Below, piece after piece: positions 29,529 through 39,272 of a stretch of 64,000 bases of DNA (the first letter of the stretch is position 1; the number at the start of each line of letters is the position of its first letter). The notes under the pieces are model-generated. The model was not told where the DNA came from, searched no databases, and was given only the letters and a program-made list of their open reading frames with translations. The stretch comes from Marinitoga piezophila KA3 (GTDB taxonomy: Bacteria; Thermotogota; Thermotogae; Petrotogales; Petrotogaceae). The stretch lies in NCBI RefSeq assembly GCF_000255135.1, contig NC_016751.1, positions 1,488,001 to 1,552,000 of the forward strand. The letters are read 5' to 3'. Position numbers and translations under genes: made by a program.

Positions 29529-30548
29529 TTGAGCAAAGTAAAAATTACGGATTTAAAACCCGGCATGATTGTAGGAGAAGATATATATAACTTAAAAAAT
29601 AGATTAAGTTTAAAAAAGGGTCAGGAATTAGATGAAAAGACCATAAAGATGCTCATTTCCTCAGATATCACAGAAATAGAGATTTTATCCTCTGAATCGC
29701 TTGGGACGGGATTTGTAGAAAAGGAATTTGAAGAGTTACCACCTATAATAGATGAAGAGGTTTATAATAGATGGATTGAATCCGTTGGGCATGTTTTTAG
29801 TCATTTTTCTAAAGAAGAGTTGTATATATCCTTAAACAATTTAACAGAAGAGATATATAAAAAATTTGATATAAAAAAAGAAAATATAGTATTGAATTTT
29901 CTAAATTCAATAGGAAATGAAAGTTTACTATATCATTCAATGAATACAGCAATTTTAGTATCATTAATTGCCAAAAAAGTGGAATTACCATATATTATGT
30001 ATAAACAAACGGTGAAATTTGCACTAATTCATGATATTGGTTATGCAATGCTCGGCGATAGGGTAATTAACGATTTTGAAAGTGAAGAAACCAATGCCAC
30101 ATTACATACAATTGTTGCATTTAAAAAATTACAGGGTTTAAAAAACGTATTAAATCATGAAATATTGGATAGTATTTTATATCATCATGAACGCTTTGAT
30201 GGTAAAGGAAAATTTCAGATGAAAGGTGAAAAAATTCCACCGCTTGTTAGAATTACCCAGGTTGCAGACGCATATACCTCATTAACAGAAATAGGATATA
30301 CGCCATATGAAGCTTTATCATGGATTTTAAAAAGATCAGGTTTTTTATTCGATCCGTATTATGTTGGACAATTATACGAAGTTACGGGATATTATCCAAC
30401 AGGAACACGTGTAAAATTGAATAATGGACAGGTAGGGATTGTGCTAAAACGAAATGAAATAGAAATTTTTCCATTGGTTCTTGTGGATAATGAAAAAATA
30501 CAAACAGGTCCCGATACAAATCTCTACATCCAGGAGGTTATAAAATGA
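29529..30548 (+). CDS. HD-GYP-like protein with altered signature motifs
   Basis: 339 residues with a TTG start at 29529 (GGGG nearby). The N-terminal part (KITDLKPGMIVGEDI) is a small beta domain common to HD-GYP proteins. The HD pair is at 168-169 but reads HDIGY rather than HDIGK. The second signature is HHERFDGKGKF at 219-229, lacking Tyr-Pro. The C-terminus has the usual GTRVKLNNGQVGIVL strand motif. Catalysis is therefore doubtful and a regulatory or dimer-partner role is possible. It overlaps the next paralogue by four bases (ATGA). Confidence 0.85.
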   Translation: MSKVKITDLKPGMIVGEDIYNLKNRLSLKKGQELDEKTIKMLISSDITEIEILSSESLGTGFVEKEFEELPPIIDEEVYNRWIESVGHVFSHFSKEELYISLNNLTEEIYKKFDIKKENIVLNFLNSIGNESLLYHSMNTAILVSLIAKKVELPYIMYKQTVKFALIHDIGYAMLGDRVINDFESEETNATLHTIVAFKKLQGLKNVLNHEILDSILYHHERFDGKGKFQMKGEKIPPLVRITQVADAYTSLTEIGYTPYEALSWILKRSGFLFDPYYVGQLYEVTGYYPTGTRVKLNNGQVGIVLKRNEIEIFPLVLVDNEKIQTGPDTNLYIQEVIK

Positions 30549-31618
30549 AAGTAATTTCTTTGAATAAAGCACAATTTGGAATGGTATTAGCTATGGATGT
30601 TAGAGATACAACGGGAAAAGTAATATTTAAGAAAAATACACCGCTTGACGAAAAGGTTATTGCTGTTTTAAAGAAAAGCGGTATATTTACCATTCCTGTG
30701 AAAAATCAAAAAAATACGATAACAGGTCTTCAAAAAGAAACCCAAAAATATGGAGTGGTAAGCAAAGAGCATCTTGATTTAGGATTTAAAAAGATAAAAA
30801 GTGTATTTAAAGTTCTGGAAGATTCTGGAAATATAGATATTGATACCGTAGTGGATATTGCCTCAACAATAAAAGAAGATATAGAAAAAAACTTTTCAGA
30901 TAAACTATTTGTTCCATTAAAAAAGTTGCAAACATTTGACGAATATTTATATTCGCACTCCTTGAATGTTATGATTATAAGTACATTGCTGGGTGTAGAA
31001 GCGGGTATTATAGGCGATGAATTGTTAAGCTTATCAATTTCAGCATTACTTCATGATATAGGAAAAACAAAGGTGCCTATTGAAATTATGAATGCTCCGA
31101 GAAAATTAACTCAGGAAGAAATGCAAATAATGAGAAATCATGTAAAGTTTGGTAAAGAATTATGTATTCAGAATAATATTAAAGATATAGGGATTGTTGC
31201 CGGGGTATATGAACACCATGAGCGTTTTGATGGTAAAGGATATTTAGAAGGAAAAACAAATGAAATGATAAGTGATTTTGGAAAGCTTATTTCCATAGCA
31301 GATGTATATGATGCGCTTACCAGCACAAGAAGTTATAAGGGGCCATGGACACCATATAAAACAATATCCTTTATATTAAGTAATGTTGAAAAACAATTTG
31401 ATGGAAGATTTGCTCAGGGATTAATAAATGCTTTTGGAGTTTATCCTGTTGGAACGAGAGTAAAATTAAGTAACGGACAATTTGGTACTATAGTAGCTTC
31501 AAATCGTTCCAATAAAATCAGACCTTTAATAAAAATCGATAGAGGCGATACAATAGATCTTTCCGAAGAAAAAACTATAAGAATAGTTGAAGTTTTAGAC
31601 TATATCTATATAGAATAA
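30545..31618 (+). CDS. HD-GYP domain protein
   Basis: 357 residues. An N-terminal domain of about 55 residues (SLNKAQFGMVLAMDVRDTTG) is followed by the HD core with HDIGK at 170-174 and HHERFDGKGYL at 224-234, where the final Pro is replaced by Leu. The C-terminus is PVGTRVKLSNGQFGTIVASN. By family it should hydrolyse cyclic-di-GMP to GMP or pGpG. It is strongly similar to its downstream neighbour (FDEYLYSHSLNVMI against YDEYLYSHSLNVMI), indicating tandem duplication. CAGGAGG precedes the ATG. Confidence 0.9.
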   Translation: MKVISLNKAQFGMVLAMDVRDTTGKVIFKKNTPLDEKVIAVLKKSGIFTIPVKNQKNTITGLQKETQKYGVVSKEHLDLGFKKIKSVFKVLEDSGNIDIDTVVDIASTIKEDIEKNFSDKLFVPLKKLQTFDEYLYSHSLNVMIISTLLGVEAGIIGDELLSLSISALLHDIGKTKVPIEIMNAPRKLTQEEMQIMRNHVKFGKELCIQNNIKDIGIVAGVYEHHERFDGKGYLEGKTNEMISDFGKLISIADVYDALTSTRSYKGPWTPYKTISFILSNVEKQFDGRFAQGLINAFGVYPVGTRVKLSNGQFGTIVASNRSNKIRPLIKIDRGDTIDLSEEKTIRIVEVLDYIYIE

Positions 31619-31629
31619 GGGGGATTTTA

Positions 31630-32718
31630 ATGAAATTTTTACCGTTAAATAAAATAAAAAGCGGTATGATATTGGCAATGGATGTAAAAGACATTGATGG
31701 CAATATCATATTTAAAAAAGGTAAGGTTATAGATTCCAATGTTTTGAACACACTTCAAAAAAATAATATATTAAAAGTTCCAATAAACGAATTAAAAAGA
31801 AAATCTGCACAGTCAGTGCAGAATATAAAAGAAATGGCATATACCCATAGTTTTTTAAGTAAAGAGGTATTGGAAAGAAGTTTTTCACAGGTAAAAGATC
31901 TTTTTGCTGAACTGGAAAAAGGCGGAGATGTTGACATAGACAAGGCAACAGAGGTTGCTTCAACAGTAACCGATGAAATGCAAAAAAATTTTTCAGACAA
32001 AATATATATACCCTTGAAAAAATTAAAAACATATGATGAATATCTGTATTCTCATTCATTAAATGTTATGATTCTGGGATCTTTAATAGGATTTGAGGCC
32101 GGTATTAGAGGTGATGAATTAACAGAATTAGCTTTATCGGGATTATTGCATGATATTGGAAAAACAAAGGTGGATCTTGAAATATTAAACGCACCAAGAA
32201 AATTATCTGCAGAAGAGTTTGAAGTTATGAAAAAACATGTTATGTACACAAAAGAAATTTTAGAAAATAATAGATTTGTTAGCGATAAGATATTACGAGG
32301 TGCAATTGAGCATCATGAAAGATATGATGGAACAGGATATTTTTTCAAGAAAAAAGGAAAGGATATCTCGGAATTTGGAAGAATATTAGCCCTTGCAGAT
32401 GTATATGATGCATTAACAAGTAAAAGGGTATATAAGGATCCATGGACGCCATACAAGACATTATCTTTTATATTATCACATGTAACCAAAAGTTTTGACC
32501 CTGAATATACTCAACATTTAATAAATGCATTTGGATTATTTCCAGCTGGAATGGTTGTTCAGTTAAGCAATAATAAAATAGGAATTGTAGTAGCATCTAA
32601 TAAAGCCAATAAAATGAAACCAATAGTAAAAATAGATGATGAACTTGTTGATACTGCAGAAGACAAAACGTTGAGAATAGTAAAAATTTTAGGATATAAA
32701 TATATAGATGAAGATTAA
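31630..32718 (+). CDS. HD-GYP domain protein, paralogue of the 30545 gene
   Basis: 362 residues with the same layout as the upstream gene: an N-terminal small domain (KSGMILAMDVKDIDGN), HDIGK at 174-178, HHERYDGTGYF at 228-238 (Phe for Pro) and a C-terminal NKIGIVVASNKANKMKP segment. A predicted cyclic-di-GMP phosphodiesterase. AAGGGGG precedes the ATG, 11 bases after the previous stop. Its TAA stop shares the TTAA palindrome at 32715-32718 with the stop of the convergent gene, with no terminator between them. Confidence 0.9.
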   Translation: MKFLPLNKIKSGMILAMDVKDIDGNIIFKKGKVIDSNVLNTLQKNNILKVPINELKRKSAQSVQNIKEMAYTHSFLSKEVLERSFSQVKDLFAELEKGGDVDIDKATEVASTVTDEMQKNFSDKIYIPLKKLKTYDEYLYSHSLNVMILGSLIGFEAGIRGDELTELALSGLLHDIGKTKVDLEILNAPRKLSAEEFEVMKKHVMYTKEILENNRFVSDKILRGAIEHHERYDGTGYFFKKKGKDISEFGRILALADVYDALTSKRVYKDPWTPYKTLSFILSHVTKSFDPEYTQHLINAFGLFPAGMVVQLSNNKIGIVVASNKANKMKPIVKIDDELVDTAEDKTLRIVKILGYKYIDED

Positions 32719-34612: not shown

Positions 34613-34654
34613 TTGACACATAGATTTTAATTTGTTATAATTCACTCAGTGAAT
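34613..34654 (+). promoter_or_regulatory. consensus promoter with 15-base palindromic operator, copy 1
   Basis: TTGACA at 34613-34618, 17 bases, extended -10 TGTTATAAT ending at 34641. ATTCACT-C-AGTGAAT at 34640-34654 overlaps the last two bases of the -10. The identical arrangement stands at 36766-36807. The gene directly downstream encodes a DNA-binding protein, which is the natural candidate to bind it. Confidence 0.85.
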
Positions 34655-34670
34655 AAAAAGAGGTGAAAGC

Positions 34671-35321
34671 ATGTTTGATTTTGAAGACTATACATTTTTT
34701 AATCCATCTCCTAATTTCAGGGAGTTAATGATTTTACAGATAATTTCGCAAAATGAAAAGGTATCTCAGGAAATGATAGCCAGAAGCGTAGGGATAGTTC
34801 CTTCAATGGTAAACCGATATTTAAAAGATTTTGAAGATAAGAAATATATAATAAAAACTGGCGGAAACAGAAGAAATATGAATTATGAAATTACGCACGA
34901 TGGGAAAAAGAGGCTGCAATTTTTGACCGTTTCCTTTATAAACGAAGTTTCAAAAATATATTCTGAGACGAAGAAATCATTTAATAAAGTTCTTAACAAA
35001 ATTGAAGATATGGGGTATAAGAATATATTATTATACGGTGCAGGAGTTGTTGGAGGAATAGTATTAAAGGTATTAACCGGAGAAAATATAAACGTAATAG
35101 GGTTTATAGATGATTCTATTTCAAAACAGGGGGATAAAATACATGGAATAAACATATATTCTCCAGAAGAAGTGAAAAATATGGATTATGACATGATTAT
35201 AATAGCTTCATTTAGACATTCTGAGGATATTTTAAAAAATGCGAGAGAAAATGAATTATCAAATATATATATTTTTAATATTGATGAAACAGGTAATGTT
35301 TCATTGGAGAAAGGGGAGTAA
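34671..35321 (+). CDS. winged-helix regulator fused to a Rossmann-like domain
   Basis: 216 residues. Residues about 15-85 are a MarR-like winged helix (REIMILQII-type first helix, then SQEMIARSVGIVPSMVNRYL and a basic wing GGNRRNMNYEIT). A linking helix follows at 86-113. Residues 116-205 are a Rossmann-like domain (NILLYGAGVVGGIVLKVL, VIGFIDDS, YDMIIIASF) like the nucleotide-binding domain found at the N-terminus of sugar-modifying enzymes. It is not Rex: the order is similar but the motifs are not. It probably senses a nucleotide or sugar-nucleotide and represses its own operon and that at 36848. It is followed after three bases by an aminotransferase. Confidence 0.82.
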   Translation: MFDFEDYTFFNPSPNFRELMILQIISQNEKVSQEMIARSVGIVPSMVNRYLKDFEDKKYIIKTGGNRRNMNYEITHDGKKRLQFLTVSFINEVSKIYSETKKSFNKVLNKIEDMGYKNILLYGAGVVGGIVLKVLTGENINVIGFIDDSISKQGDKIHGINIYSPEEVKNMDYDMIIIASFRHSEDILKNARENELSNIYIFNIDETGNVSLEKGE

Positions 35322-35324
35322 AAA

Positions 35325-36461
35325 ATGAAAATTCCATTATTTGATATGACAAGGCAATATGAAAAAATAAGGGAAGAAGTTTTGGAGACTCTTGATAATA
35401 TTTTTAAAACAGGAAAGGTAATTTTAGGACCACATGTAAAAGCTCTTGAAGAAGAATTGGCAGAATATGCAGGGACAAAATATGCAATAGGTGTTGCAAA
35501 TGGCTCTGATGCATTATTTTTATCTGTGAGGGCTTTAAATATTGGAGAAGGTGATTATGTAATTACTACACCATATACATTTTTTGCAACAGCAAGCTGT
35601 ATAACAAGAAATGGAGCAAAGCCTATATTTGTTGATGTTGAAGAAAAGTATTACAACATGGATTTAAATAAGGTAGAAGAAATTTTGAAAAATCATCCAG
35701 AAAGGGAAAAAATAAAGGCAATAATACCCGTTCATCTTTTTGGTAAAACAATAGATCTTGAAAGACTTCAATATTTCAAAGAAAAATATGGAGTTTATAT
35801 AATCGAAGACGGTGCACAGTCCATAGGTTCCATGTGGAAGGGCAAAAAAGGATTTTCTGTTGGAGATTTAAGCATTACATCATTCTTCCCTACCAAAAAC
35901 CTTGGAGGTTATGGTGATGGAGGAATGGTATTTACCAATAATGAAGAGTTAGCAACAAGAGTAAGAAAATTAAGAGTACACGGTGCAGCAAAAAAATACT
36001 ATCATGATGAAGTAGGATTTAATTCAAGGCTTGATGAAGTGCAGGCAGCAATATTGAGAATAAAATTAAAACATCTTGATGAGTACATAGAAAATAGAAT
36101 AAAAATAGCTAAAAAATATGATGAGTTATTTAAAGCATATAAATTAGAAAAATATGTAGAGTATCCAGGAGTATTTGAAGATAAATCTCATGTCTATCAT
36201 CAATATGTAATAACGCTTAAAAAAGGTAATAGAGACGAGTTAAGAGAATATTTAACAGAAAAAGGCATAGGAACATCTATTTATTATCCGAAGGGATTAC
36301 ATGAACAGAAATGTTTTGAATATCTTGGTTATAAAAAAGGAGATTTTCCAATAACAGAAAAAGCAACAGAAACTACATTGGCATTGCCTATATTCCCTGA
36401 ACTCACAGAAAATGAGGTTGAATATATAGTAGAATCTATAAAAGAATATTTTAATAATTAA
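35325..36461 (+). CDS. DegT/DnrJ/EryC1 sugar aminotransferase, WbpE-like
   Basis: 378 residues. PLP enzyme that transaminates a keto sugar nucleotide. The family residues are visible: G-S-D at 60-62 (NGSDALFLSV), D162 in EDGAQSIGS and PLP lysine K191 in SFFPTKNLGG. The opening MIPLFDMTRQY-like segment (KIPLFDMTRQYEKI) and VHLFGKTIDLERL are typical. With WbpA- and WbpB-like genes in the next operon under the same operator, the likely reaction is amination of UDP-3-keto-GlcNAcA (WbpE). The acetyltransferase WbpD is not in the window. Confidence 0.9.
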   Translation: MKIPLFDMTRQYEKIREEVLETLDNIFKTGKVILGPHVKALEEELAEYAGTKYAIGVANGSDALFLSVRALNIGEGDYVITTPYTFFATASCITRNGAKPIFVDVEEKYYNMDLNKVEEILKNHPEREKIKAIIPVHLFGKTIDLERLQYFKEKYGVYIIEDGAQSIGSMWKGKKGFSVGDLSITSFFPTKNLGGYGDGGMVFTNNEELATRVRKLRVHGAAKKYYHDEVGFNSRLDEVQAAILRIKLKHLDEYIENRIKIAKKYDELFKAYKLEKYVEYPGVFEDKSHVYHQYVITLKKGNRDELREYLTEKGIGTSIYYPKGLHEQKCFEYLGYKKGDFPITEKATETTLALPIFPELTENEVEYIVESIKEYFNN

Positions 36462-36464
36462 ACT

Positions 36465-36492
36465 AATCCCGCTTGAAAAACAGCGGGATTTT
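36465..36492 (+). terminator. terminator of the aminotransferase operon
   Basis: AATCCCGCT / AGCGGGATT stem, eight-base loop, short T run. Confidence 0.8.
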
Positions 36493-36493
36493 A

Positions 36494-36502
36494 TGATATA
36501 AT
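36494..36502 (+). promoter_or_regulatory. extended -10 promoter of the 36541 small gene
   Basis: TGATATAAT ending at 36502, directly after the preceding terminator. Confidence 0.5.
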
Positions 36503-36540
36503 ATTATTGATAATAAAATCACAAAGATGGAGGGATGGGA

Positions 36541-36717
36541 ATGTTTGGTTTTTCTCCAGGACTTACAGTGCTATTAATAGTTGCCTTTTTTTTATTGATA
36601 TATAGAGGATGGAAATCATATCAGGATGGATATTTTGGTGAATTTTTATTTAGACTTTTAAGAACCTTTTTATTTGTATTAGCGGCGAATTTTATTATGT
36701 GGATGATGGATATATAG
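36541..36717 (+). CDS. small membrane protein
   Basis: 58 residues, not recognised. Two hydrophobic helices at about 7-22 (LTVLLIVAFFLLIY) and 38-56 (RLLRTFLFVLAANFIMWMM), separated by a charged, aromatic loop (RGWKSYQDGYFGEF). GGAGGG lies six bases before the ATG at 36541, so I prefer it to the in-frame ATG at 36535. It has its own -10 and a strong terminator, which supports a real, separately transcribed gene between the two sugar operons. Confidence 0.7.
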   Translation: MFGFSPGLTVLLIVAFFLLIYRGWKSYQDGYFGEFLFRLLRTFLFVLAANFIMWMMDI

Positions 36718-36726
36718 TATATAATT

Positions 36727-36753
36727 AGGCTCTTCAATTTGAAGAGCCTTTTT
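36727..36753 (+). terminator. terminator of the small membrane protein gene
   Basis: Perfect 9-bp stem AGGCTCTTC / GAAGAGCCT, AATTT loop, T run. Confidence 0.92.
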
Positions 36754-36765
36754 AATTAAATTATA

Positions 36766-36807
36766 TTGACACATTCTTTTTTTTATGATATAATTCACTC
36801 AGTGAAT
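36766..36807 (+). promoter_or_regulatory. consensus promoter with 15-base palindromic operator, copy 2
   Basis: TTGACA at 36766-36771, 17 bases, extended -10 TGATATAAT ending at 36794, and ATTCACT-C-AGTGAAT at 36793-36807. It is identical in sequence and placement to the operator at 34640-34654, although the rest of the two spacers differs. Confidence 0.88.
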
Positions 36808-36847: not shown

Positions 36848-38152
36848 ATGAGTTTAATGGAAAAGATTCAAAACAAAACAGCAAAAATAGGGGTTATTGG
36901 ACTTGGTTATGTTGGATTACCTTTAGCAGTAGAAAAGGCAAAGGCAGGTTATAACGTTATTGGCTTTGATGTTCAGGAAAAAAAAGTTGAAATGGTTAAT
37001 AAAGGTATTAATTATATTGGTGATGTTGTAAATGAAGAACTTGAAGATCTTGTAAAAAAAGGAAAGATTACAGCTACAACAGATTTCGAAAAATTAGCTG
37101 AATGTGATGCAGTAATGATCTGTGTACCTACTCCTTTAAATAAATTTAAGCAGCCCGATTTGCAATATGTTGTTGCTTCTACAAAAGAGGTTGCAAAAAG
37201 ATTGCATAAAGATATGCTGGTAACCCTTGAAAGTACAACATATCCTGGAACCACAGAGGAAGTAATGCTTCCTATATTAGAAGAAACAGGATTAAAGGTT
37301 GGTAAGGATTTCTATCTTGCTTTTTCACCAGAAAGGGTAGACCCAGGAAATTTAAGGTTTAAAACAAAGAATACACCAAAGGTAGTTGGTGGCGTAACAC
37401 CAGAATGTACAAAACATGCTAAAGCGTTATATGAAAATGTTCTTGAAGCAGAGGTATTTGCTGTTTCAACACCAAAAGAAGCAGAAATGGCAAAGATTTT
37501 AGAAAATACATTTAGAATTGTAAATATTGCGCTTATTAATGAAATGGCTGTAGTTGCAAAAAAACTTGGAATTAATATCTGGGAAGTTATTGATGCAGCA
37601 GCTACAAAACCATTTGGTTTTATGCCTTTTTATCCTGGGCCAGGTGTAGGTGGTCATTGTATTCCAATAGATCCATTTTATTTAACATATAAAGCAAGAG
37701 CTGTTGATTATCATACAAGATTAATAGAAATGGCTGGAGAAATAAATGATGCAATGCCTGAATATGTTGTTTCAAGACTTCAGGATATTTTAAACGATAG
37801 AAAGAGATGTTTAAATGGAGCAAAGGTATTATTGCTTGGTGTTGCTTATAAAAACGATATAGATGATTTAAGGGAATCACCTGCATTAAAGGTTATAGAA
37901 CACCTTGAAAAGAAACATGCAGATATTATTATTCATGATCCGTATATTCCAGAATTTACACATGAAGGAAAAACATATAAGAGTGTGGAATTAACAAGAG
38001 AGCTTCTTGAAAGTGTAGATGCTGTGGTATTAACTACTGCACATTCTAATGTAGATTATGAATTTGTGCTTGAACATGCTCCATTCTTATTTGATACAAA
38101 GAATAAAACAAAGAATATAGAAAAGAATAAGGATAAGGTGATATTATTATGA
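36848..38152 (+). CDS. UDP-N-acetylglucosamine 6-dehydrogenase, WbpA-like
   Basis: 434 residues from the ATG at 36848 (GGAGGG upstream). Oxidises UDP-GlcNAc with NAD+ to UDP-GlcNAc-uronic acid. The N-terminal NAD domain has IGVIGLGYVGLPLA at 14-27. CVPTPLNKFKQPDL and SPERVDPG are substrate-side motifs. The catalytic Cys is in GVGGHCIPIDP, and the C-terminal domain has VLLLGVAYKNDIDDLRESPA. The motif set fits the WbpA/WecC group rather than UDP-glucose dehydrogenase. It overlaps the next gene by four bases. Confidence 0.92.
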   Translation: MSLMEKIQNKTAKIGVIGLGYVGLPLAVEKAKAGYNVIGFDVQEKKVEMVNKGINYIGDVVNEELEDLVKKGKITATTDFEKLAECDAVMICVPTPLNKFKQPDLQYVVASTKEVAKRLHKDMLVTLESTTYPGTTEEVMLPILEETGLKVGKDFYLAFSPERVDPGNLRFKTKNTPKVVGGVTPECTKHAKALYENVLEAEVFAVSTPKEAEMAKILENTFRIVNIALINEMAVVAKKLGINIWEVIDAAATKPFGFMPFYPGPGVGGHCIPIDPFYLTYKARAVDYHTRLIEMAGEINDAMPEYVVSRLQDILNDRKRCLNGAKVLLLGVAYKNDIDDLRESPALKVIEHLEKKHADIIIHDPYIPEFTHEGKTYKSVELTRELLESVDAVVLTTAHSNVDYEFVLEHAPFLFDTKNKTKNIEKNKDKVILL

Positions 38153-39222
38153 TTCGACTGGCATTAATTGGTTGTGGTAGAATTGCTACTAAAAAACATA
38201 CAGAAGCTATAATAAAGAATAGCGAATTATTTGAGCTTGTAGCTGTTGTTGATCCTGTAAAGGAAAAGGCAGAAAATATTGCTAATATAATAGAAGAAGC
38301 GGGATTAAAAAGGCCAGAAGTATATACTGATTATAATGAAGTTTTAAAAAGAGAAGATATAGATATGGTATCCATAGCTACAGAAAGTGGATATCATTAT
38401 CAGATTTCTATAGATGCAATGTGCAATGGAAAACATGTGCTTGTTGAAAAACCTATGGCATTATCCACAAAAGAAATGGACCATATGATAGAACTTTCAA
38501 AAGAAAAGGATTTAAAATTAGGTGTGTGTTTTCAGAACAGATTTAATCCACCTATTCAGGAGTTAAGAAAAAAACTTGAAAATGGTGATTTTGGAAAATT
38601 GTTGCATGGACAGATTTCCATAAGATGGAACAGGAATAAATCATATTATGAACAGGCACCATGGAGAGGAACGTGGGAGCTTGATGGTGGAACATTAATG
38701 AATCAATGTACTCACGGAATAGACCTATTACAATGGACATTTGGTGAAATAGAAGAGATTTCTGGTAGAATTGAAAACTTTAATCATCCATATATTGAAG
38801 CAGAAGATTTTGGAAGTGCAATTATAAAGTTTAAAAATGGTGCTGTGGGAATTGTAGAAGGAACAGCAAATGTTTATCCAAAGAATCTTGAAGAAACATT
38901 GTCTGTGTTTGGTGAAAATGGAACGGTTGTAATAGGTGGTCTGGCAGTAAATAAAATAGAAACCTGGAGATTTGATGGTGAAGAATCACATCCATTTCAA
39001 AATTTGCCTGATCCTGATACTGTTTATGGTGCAGGTCATGTGCCGCTTTATAAGGACTTTTATGAAGCTATAATAAATAATAGAAAACCATATATTTCTG
39101 GAGAAGATGGAAAAAAAGCTGTTGAAATTGTACTTGCAATTTATAAATCTTCTAAGGAAGGAAAACCAGTAAAATTTCCATTTGAATTTTCAACACTTGA
39201 GATGAAGGAATATTTTAAGTAA
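38149..39222 (+). CDS. Gfo/Idh/MocA oxidoreductase, WbpB-like
   Basis: 357 residues. The Rossmann motif GCGRIATKKH is at 8-17 and the family EKP at 100-102. The C-terminal sheet domain contains WRGTWELDGGTLMNQCTHGIDLLQWTFG, where the conserved GG...HxID segment lines the active site. Together with the dehydrogenase it overlaps, it should oxidise the C3 hydroxyl of UDP-GlcNAcA (WbpB reaction), giving the substrate of the WbpE-like aminotransferase. That pathway leads to 2,3-diamino-uronic acids in O-antigens or S-layer glycans. Confidence 0.88.
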   Translation: MIRLALIGCGRIATKKHTEAIIKNSELFELVAVVDPVKEKAENIANIIEEAGLKRPEVYTDYNEVLKREDIDMVSIATESGYHYQISIDAMCNGKHVLVEKPMALSTKEMDHMIELSKEKDLKLGVCFQNRFNPPIQELRKKLENGDFGKLLHGQISIRWNRNKSYYEQAPWRGTWELDGGTLMNQCTHGIDLLQWTFGEIEEISGRIENFNHPYIEAEDFGSAIIKFKNGAVGIVEGTANVYPKNLEETLSVFGENGTVVIGGLAVNKIETWRFDGEESHPFQNLPDPDTVYGAGHVPLYKDFYEAIINNRKPYISGEDGKKAVEIVLAIYKSSKEGKPVKFPFEFSTLEMKEYFK

Positions 39223-39225
39223 TAA

Positions 39226-39272
39226 TAAAATAAAAATGTCGGGCTGAAAATCAGCCCGACTTATTATTATTT
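39226..39272. terminator. bidirectional terminator
   Basis: GTCGGGCTGA / TCAGCCCGAC (39238-39260) flanked by AATAATAAAATAAAAA and TTATTATTATTTATTATT, serving the convergent wbpB-like and hpf genes. Confidence 0.9.

Follow-up and report, generated by a model that had tools for sequence, protein, structure and literature searches.

A candidate winged-helix/Rossmann regulator and its conserved putative operator at UDP-sugar genes of Marinitoga and other Thermotogota

In Pseudomonas aeruginosa, the enzymes WbpA, WbpB, WbpE and WbpD carry out the four steps that convert UDP-GlcNAc to UDP-GlcNAc3NAcA (PMC10622841). Among described transcription factors, Rex proteins (PF06971 joined to a Rossmann domain) are likewise approximately 210 amino acids in length, with an N-terminal winged helix, a C-terminal Rossmann domain and operators located at promoters; the Rex operator of T. 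maritima is ATTTGAGAAATTTATCACAAAA (PMC8836258). MarR_EPS proteins (TIGR04176), which are EPS-associated MarR-type regulators, carry a winged helix similar to the one examined here, and their name places the family with exopolysaccharide genes. Finally, the N-terminal Rossmann domains of CapD/WbpM-type and PglD/NeuD proteins (3nkl, PglD_N) have the core GAGxxG...GFIDD...G in common with our regulator candidate.

In the literature that we searched, how Thermotogota regulate the precursors of surface polysaccharides seems to be unexplored, and the locus described below provides a defined candidate regulator, operator and regulon that can be traced over most of the phylum. The window, by which we mean the whole stretch of 64,000 nucleotides that was analyzed, is G000:C2:1488001-1552000 of a 2.24 Mb Marinitoga genome. 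Its named close relative is Marinitoga lauensis, in which a segment of the regulator is 94% identical.

A shared putative operator at the sugar-nucleotide promoters

The preliminary description of this DNA placed identical 15-base palindromes in the same register on the -10 elements of two consensus promoters, assigned WbpE-, WbpA- and WbpB-like functions to the genes behind them, and noted a 216-residue winged-helix and Rossmann-like protein at the head of the first operon. All of these assignments hold. The relevant features, each on the forward (+) strand, are as follows.

34613..34641, +: promoter 1, TTGACA-17-TATAAT (12/12 consensus)
34640..34654, +: operator 1, ATTCACT-C-AGTGAAT, spanning the 3' end of the -10 plus the expected start site (exact match; conserved upstream of orthologues)
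34671..35321, +: regulator, 216 aa, winged helix plus Rossmann-like domain (Pfam, NCBIfam, PDB and fold matches; homologues in 67/103 genomes of the phylum)
34710..34919, +: winged-helix putative DNA-binding part, residues ~14-83, recognition helix GIVPSMVNRYL (HTH_24, E 4e-8)
35013..35285, +: Rossmann-like putative ligand domain, residues ~115-205, YGAGVVG ... GFIDDS (invariant residues; PDB 3nkl)
35325..36461, +: WbpE-like aminotransferase, DegT/DnrJ/EryC1 (Pfam, NCBIfam, PDB)
36766..36794, +: promoter 2, TTGACA-17-TATAAT (12/12 consensus)
36793..36807, +: operator 2, the identical 15 bases in the register to the -10 of operator 1 (exact match)
36848..38152, +: WbpA-like UDP-GlcNAc 6-dehydrogenase (TIGR03026, 459 bits over cut-off; PDB)
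38149..39222, +: WbpB/WlbA-like 3-dehydrogenase (best PDB matches 3q2i/3q2k, E 7e-64)
39238..39260, +: terminator-like hairpin closing the wbpA-wbpB operon (sequence)

Thus, the first operon comprises the regulator and the WbpE-like gene (34671-35321 and 35325-36461), and the second comprises the WbpA- and WbpB-like genes. Both exact copies of ATTCACTCAGTGAAT in the window overlap the final two bases (AT) of TATAAT within sigma-70 promoters that match the consensus at 12 of 12 positions, have 17-nt spacers and carry TG before the -10. A scan of the complete genome, which had been proposed as a check, yields three exact copies compared to approximately 0.03 expected from base composition, and the reversed control pattern has no match with one mismatch or fewer. 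The third copy lies outside the window (G000:C2:1163158-1163172), 23 bp upstream of a gene for a WbpD-like acetyltransferase and likewise behind TTGACA/TATAAT, directly at the end of TATAAT. All three copies therefore reside at pathway genes. Sites with two mismatches are fewer than in the control (seven beyond the three exact copies versus 16), and so we claim no further regulon members in this genome; weak partial matches inside the window are at chance level.

Enzyme identities were derived from family and PDB matches, and by these all four WbpA-B-E-D enzyme families are represented in the genome. The WbpE-like enzyme matches PDB 3nu7 (E 5e-77), with QdtB and another transaminase scoring higher; the WbpA-like enzyme matches 4r16 (E 3e-75); and the WbpD-type protein matches 3mqg (E 5e-22), with QdtC scoring higher. 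As judged from sequence, the regulator and the WbpA, B, E and D genes, which are all four expected for UDP-GlcNAc3NAcA, are behind one predicted operator. Two PF02350 genes, candidates for a WbpI-type 2-epimerase that would yield UDP-ManNAc3NAcA, are also present in the genome, and neither is behind the operator.

Two other features of the window were recorded. A 60-aa ORF with a hydrophobic stretch (36535-36717) sits between the two operons with its own promoter (TTGAAA-18-TATAAT, 36473-36502) and a terminator downstream (36727-36749). At 29529-32718, three ORFs of 339-362 aa that resemble one another follow in succession; by eye, they carry HD-domain-like motifs and are possibly of the HD-GYP type.

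Architecture of the regulator and its likely class of ligand

Pfam places HTH_24 at residues 18-60 of the regulator and Rossmann-type families from residue ~84 or 118, where the C-terminal half matches the Methyltransf_14 C-domain, PglD_N and Rex. A profile built from 17 orthologues finds its best PDB match in 3nkl, a nucleotide-sugar Rossmann domain (E 1.3e-7), followed by MarR-type winged helices and Rex. In homologues with as little as 29% identity, residues G123, A124, G125, G128, G144 and D147 are invariant; the preservation of a GAGxxG turn and a following Asp at this distance makes a nucleotide-type ligand likely. A single-sequence AlphaFold model (pLDDT 63) is weak in fold detail, and its fold matches thus serve as supporting evidence only: the top whole-chain Foldseek matches are Rex, and the best structural match of the C domain is 3nkl (Z 8.7).

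Several known families were considered and rejected. Membership in Rex is contradicted by the absence of PF06971 among Pfam matches to E 0.1, by an N-terminal half that is HTH_24, by an NCBIfam Rex score of 20.2 bits against a cut-off of 130, by an operator (TTCAnTCAnTGAnTGAA) that differs from the T. maritima Rex site given above, and by the presence of a true Rex in 40 of 41 genomes. Similarly, the score for MarR_EPS TIGR04176 is 21.3 bits, well below its cut-off of 88. The protein is also not a NeuD/PglD-type sugar acetyltransferase, which combines a Rossmann N-domain with a left-handed beta-helix: only the N-domain region matches, and scores fall below the cut-offs for both PglD_N (19.7 versus 23.4 bits) and TIGR03570 (26.7 versus 160.8). 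Indeed, the protein scores below the curated cut-off of every NCBIfam model. With no curated family covering the whole protein, the earlier term ‘new-looking’ is fair, and it appears to be uncharacterized, given that we found no description of it in the literature searched, which included only a minority of subscription journals.

The resemblance to Rex nevertheless raises the prospect that the regulator binds its operator as proposed but reads NAD(H), which would couple the pathway to redox state. WbpA and WbpB are both NAD+-using enzymes, the overall architecture of winged helix plus Rossmann domain is that of Rex by Pfam and by the same low-confidence model, the Rossmann region matches Rex models weakly (E 3e-4), and the GAGxxG turn and subsequent acidic residue are invariant. 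However, a separate Rex already exists in nearly all of these genomes, the winged helix is not that of Rex, the regulon is one sugar pathway rather than fermentation genes, and, in both sequence and structure, the Rossmann domain best matches the nucleotide-sugar protein 3nkl. We consequently view NAD(H) sensing as fairly unlikely, and favor a sugar-nucleotide ligand. That the ligand is specifically a UDP-sugar of the pathway is a proposal for which we judge the chances to be about even.

Conservation of regulator, operator and recognition helix

Within Petrotogales, the regulator has a match in 32 of 38 genomes. Most Petrotogaceae carry a single regulator-wbpE-wbpA-wbpB operon with one operator, and in nearly every WbpE-linked homologue read, the motif is found 5-33 nt before the aligned protein start; L100 is an outlier at 86 nt, and the weakest motif (L162, G042) has mismatches at three of 12 positions. 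In the Marinitoga genomes read (L094, L111-L114), wbpA-wbpB-wbpD forms an operon apart from that of the regulator and is preceded by an operator of its own, while in the genome of the window wbpD is split off again and carries the third. Retention of the operator by each operon that splits away is as expected of a functional operator under gene rearrangement. In several Petrotogaceae (L115-L117, L119), wbpD is elsewhere in the genome without an operator.

The 38 genomes of the order contain 23 exact operators, and 22 of these are at the regulator, wbpA or wbpD, a count in which one site (G024 C12) is assigned from its distance to wbpB and another (G036) lies at a contig end that shows the first codons of the regulator. 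Sites with one mismatch in G007, G015, G017 and others are inside ORFs and away from pathway genes. The sole exception among exact sites is in G022 (L091:13685-13773, near 801756), where an operator with TTGACA/TATAAT runs into a degenerate TPP riboswitch (33.9 bits, below the gathering score of 54.3) and a terminator, next to ThiF- and ThiD-like genes; it resembles a rearranged copy of the promoter. We also observed that the M. lauensis record (L037:7932-9789) has both the regulator and WbpE frames split into two ORFs, possibly because of sequencing indels and possibly because of decay.

Our survey of the spread of the regulator covered Thermotogota, where a homologue is present in 67 of 103 genomes as one full-length copy per genome; among homologue matches, plasmids contribute one partial Rossmann match only, and a scan of named genomes gave M. 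lauensis alone. Of the 67 genomes with the regulator, 49 contain TTCACTNAGTGAATGA with at most one mismatch, compared to five of the 36 without it (Fisher P = 6.7e-9, uncorrected for phylogeny). One of these five, G036, has a contig that breaks off within the regulator's first codons; the remaining four near-matches fall inside coding sequence or at a distance from wbp genes. No operator was seen at the inspected wbp promoters of regulator-less genomes that have WbpB. The 18 regulator-bearing genomes lacking such a site include several (G008, G011, G029, G050, G053, G062) with two-mismatch versions in place, and also G001 and G045-G048, in which the recognition helix has changed in the members read.

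The operator, 15-17 bases in length, is retained over most of the phylum, and its composite, TTCAnTCAnTGAnTGAA, was derived from 40 distinct site sequences that include one or two chance matches in coding sequence of f9, the Fervidobacterium/Thermosipho-type family (this label and ‘Petrotoga-type’ were assigned from kinship codes and gene content). Over the first seven positions, the dyad centered on 34647 pairs in 29-40 of the 40 sites. A second dyad whose center is two bases downstream (+2 versus 0) pairs well too, and is perfect in Fervidobacterium, leaving the predicted dyad center ambiguous. Conservation of the 15 bases could also mean that they are a promoter or leader sequence and not an operator, since the motif touches the -10 in most genomes. 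We reject a promoter-only explanation and rate this reading as extremely improbable: in Petrotoga-type genomes, the operator is still conserved approximately 13 bp downstream of the -10, and so its conservation is not due to promoter function, and exact copies occur almost exclusively at the regulator or wbp genes.

The operator is more plausibly the binding site of a protein, and the recognition helix suggests which one. The sequence GIVPS(M/L)(V/I)N(K/R)Y is common to families f1, f2, f6, f9 and part of f7/f8; for example, GIVPSLVNKYL of f9 is near-identical to GIVPSMVNRYL of the window protein. The helix has diverged to TPPMVNKYL in G045 and G047, neither of which has an operator at its wbpE-wbpA-wbpB operon. 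In G001, the helix is VAASMINKYI, and another palindrome, TATATTCGTTCG-G-CGAGCGAATATA (L109:9769-9793), occupies the regulator promoter, lying over the -10 of a gene for a 30% identical homologue that is followed by WbpD- and WbpE-like genes. Because the helix is conserved together with the operator and differs where the operator is lost, this protein, and not another, is predicted to read the site. We consider this co-variation to be the strongest argument for that assignment.

Unlike these linked arrangements, the f9 regulator is encoded within an operon of unrelated genes (MCP, lgt, phosphoglycerate mutase), yet every one of the 13 wbpA loci read carries TTCATTCAGTGAATGAA or a near version, as do three wbpB genes. 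The f9 regulator genes have no matching operator of their own, and thus autoregulation is not universal. This distribution, with the motif at wbpA or wbpB and absent at the regulator gene, could be explained if the palindrome were read by a different conserved regulator, for which the 216-aa protein is simply a target among others. We find that explanation improbable in light of the phylum-wide co-occurrence of motif and regulator, the parallel changes in helix and motif, and the single full-length homologue per genome, and we retain the 216-aa protein as the likely reader. Separately, in G082 (L181, just upstream of 4928), a homologue of the regulator encoded in one operon with lgt and phosphoglycerate mutase has a promoter with a perfect 12+1+12 palindrome, ATTATAACATAA-T-TTATGTTATAAT, while the motif at wbpA of this genome is TTCAGTCAGTGAATGA; each of the two sites may have a regulator of its own.

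The preliminary description regarded homologues lacking the operator at these genes as evidence against its model. The pairing of regulator and operator, whose conservation in relatives it proposed to check, is widespread, and homologues lacking the operator do exist in a few genomes, where the recognition helix also differs.

Proposed mechanism and comparison with known systems

The architecture, operator positions, regulon, conservation and co-variation are established from sequence; DNA binding, dimerization and repression we infer. The self-repressed pathway regulator put forward as the simplest model is now the best-supported one, given the co-occurrence statistics, an operator that follows relocated wbpA, wbpB and wbpD genes, and a helix that co-varies with it. 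We thus think it quite likely that the 216-aa protein serves as a transcription factor specific to this pathway and controls its own gene, probably as a homodimeric repressor and probably one that reads a nucleotide sugar. Its winged helix would bind ATTCACT-N-AGTGAAT over the -10 and start site, and the bound regulator would block RNA polymerase at three promoters, namely those of the operon that it shares with wbpE, of wbpA-wbpB and of wbpD. Dimer binding and repression are suggested by a site that would block the polymerase footprint and by window promoters that are strong unaided. The Rossmann domain most likely would sense a UDP-sugar of the pathway from UDP-GlcNAc to UDP-GlcNAc3NAcA and adjust DNA binding, although which ligand this is, and whether it strengthens or weakens binding, is a guess.

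Winged-helix regulators can activate or repress transcription, and so the protein might instead be an activator, or both activator and repressor. This seems very unlikely when the site either covers part of the -10 or follows it, and when the window promoters match the consensus at every position and need no activator. With an operator over the start site, repression fits best, albeit without proof.

More tentatively, and at slightly less than an even chance, we propose a phylum-wide transcription-factor family whose ligand domain came from nucleotide-sugar enzymes and serves as a direct sensor of a UDP-sugar from the di-acetamido uronic acid pathway, such that the supply of surface sugar is set by transcriptional feedback. 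If true, a Rossmann domain of nucleotide-sugar enzymes would act as a transcriptional UDP-sugar sensor. Moreover, a family in which operator and recognition helix change together should be useful for studies of specificity.

Compared to Rex, the regulator has a different winged-helix family and a different operator, and it coexists with a separate true Rex in the same genomes. Its Rossmann domain also distinguishes it from MarR_EPS, whose model length of 105 leaves no room for such a domain. The related Rossmann domains of CapD/WbpM-type and PglD/NeuD proteins belong to nucleotide-sugar enzymes, whereas that of the regulator is fused to a predicted DNA-binding domain. Lastly, the same four enzyme families constitute the P. 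aeruginosa WbpA/B/E/D pathway to UDP-GlcNAc3NAcA (PMC10622841), whereas the genes described here are distributed over up to three operons that are tied together by one operator.
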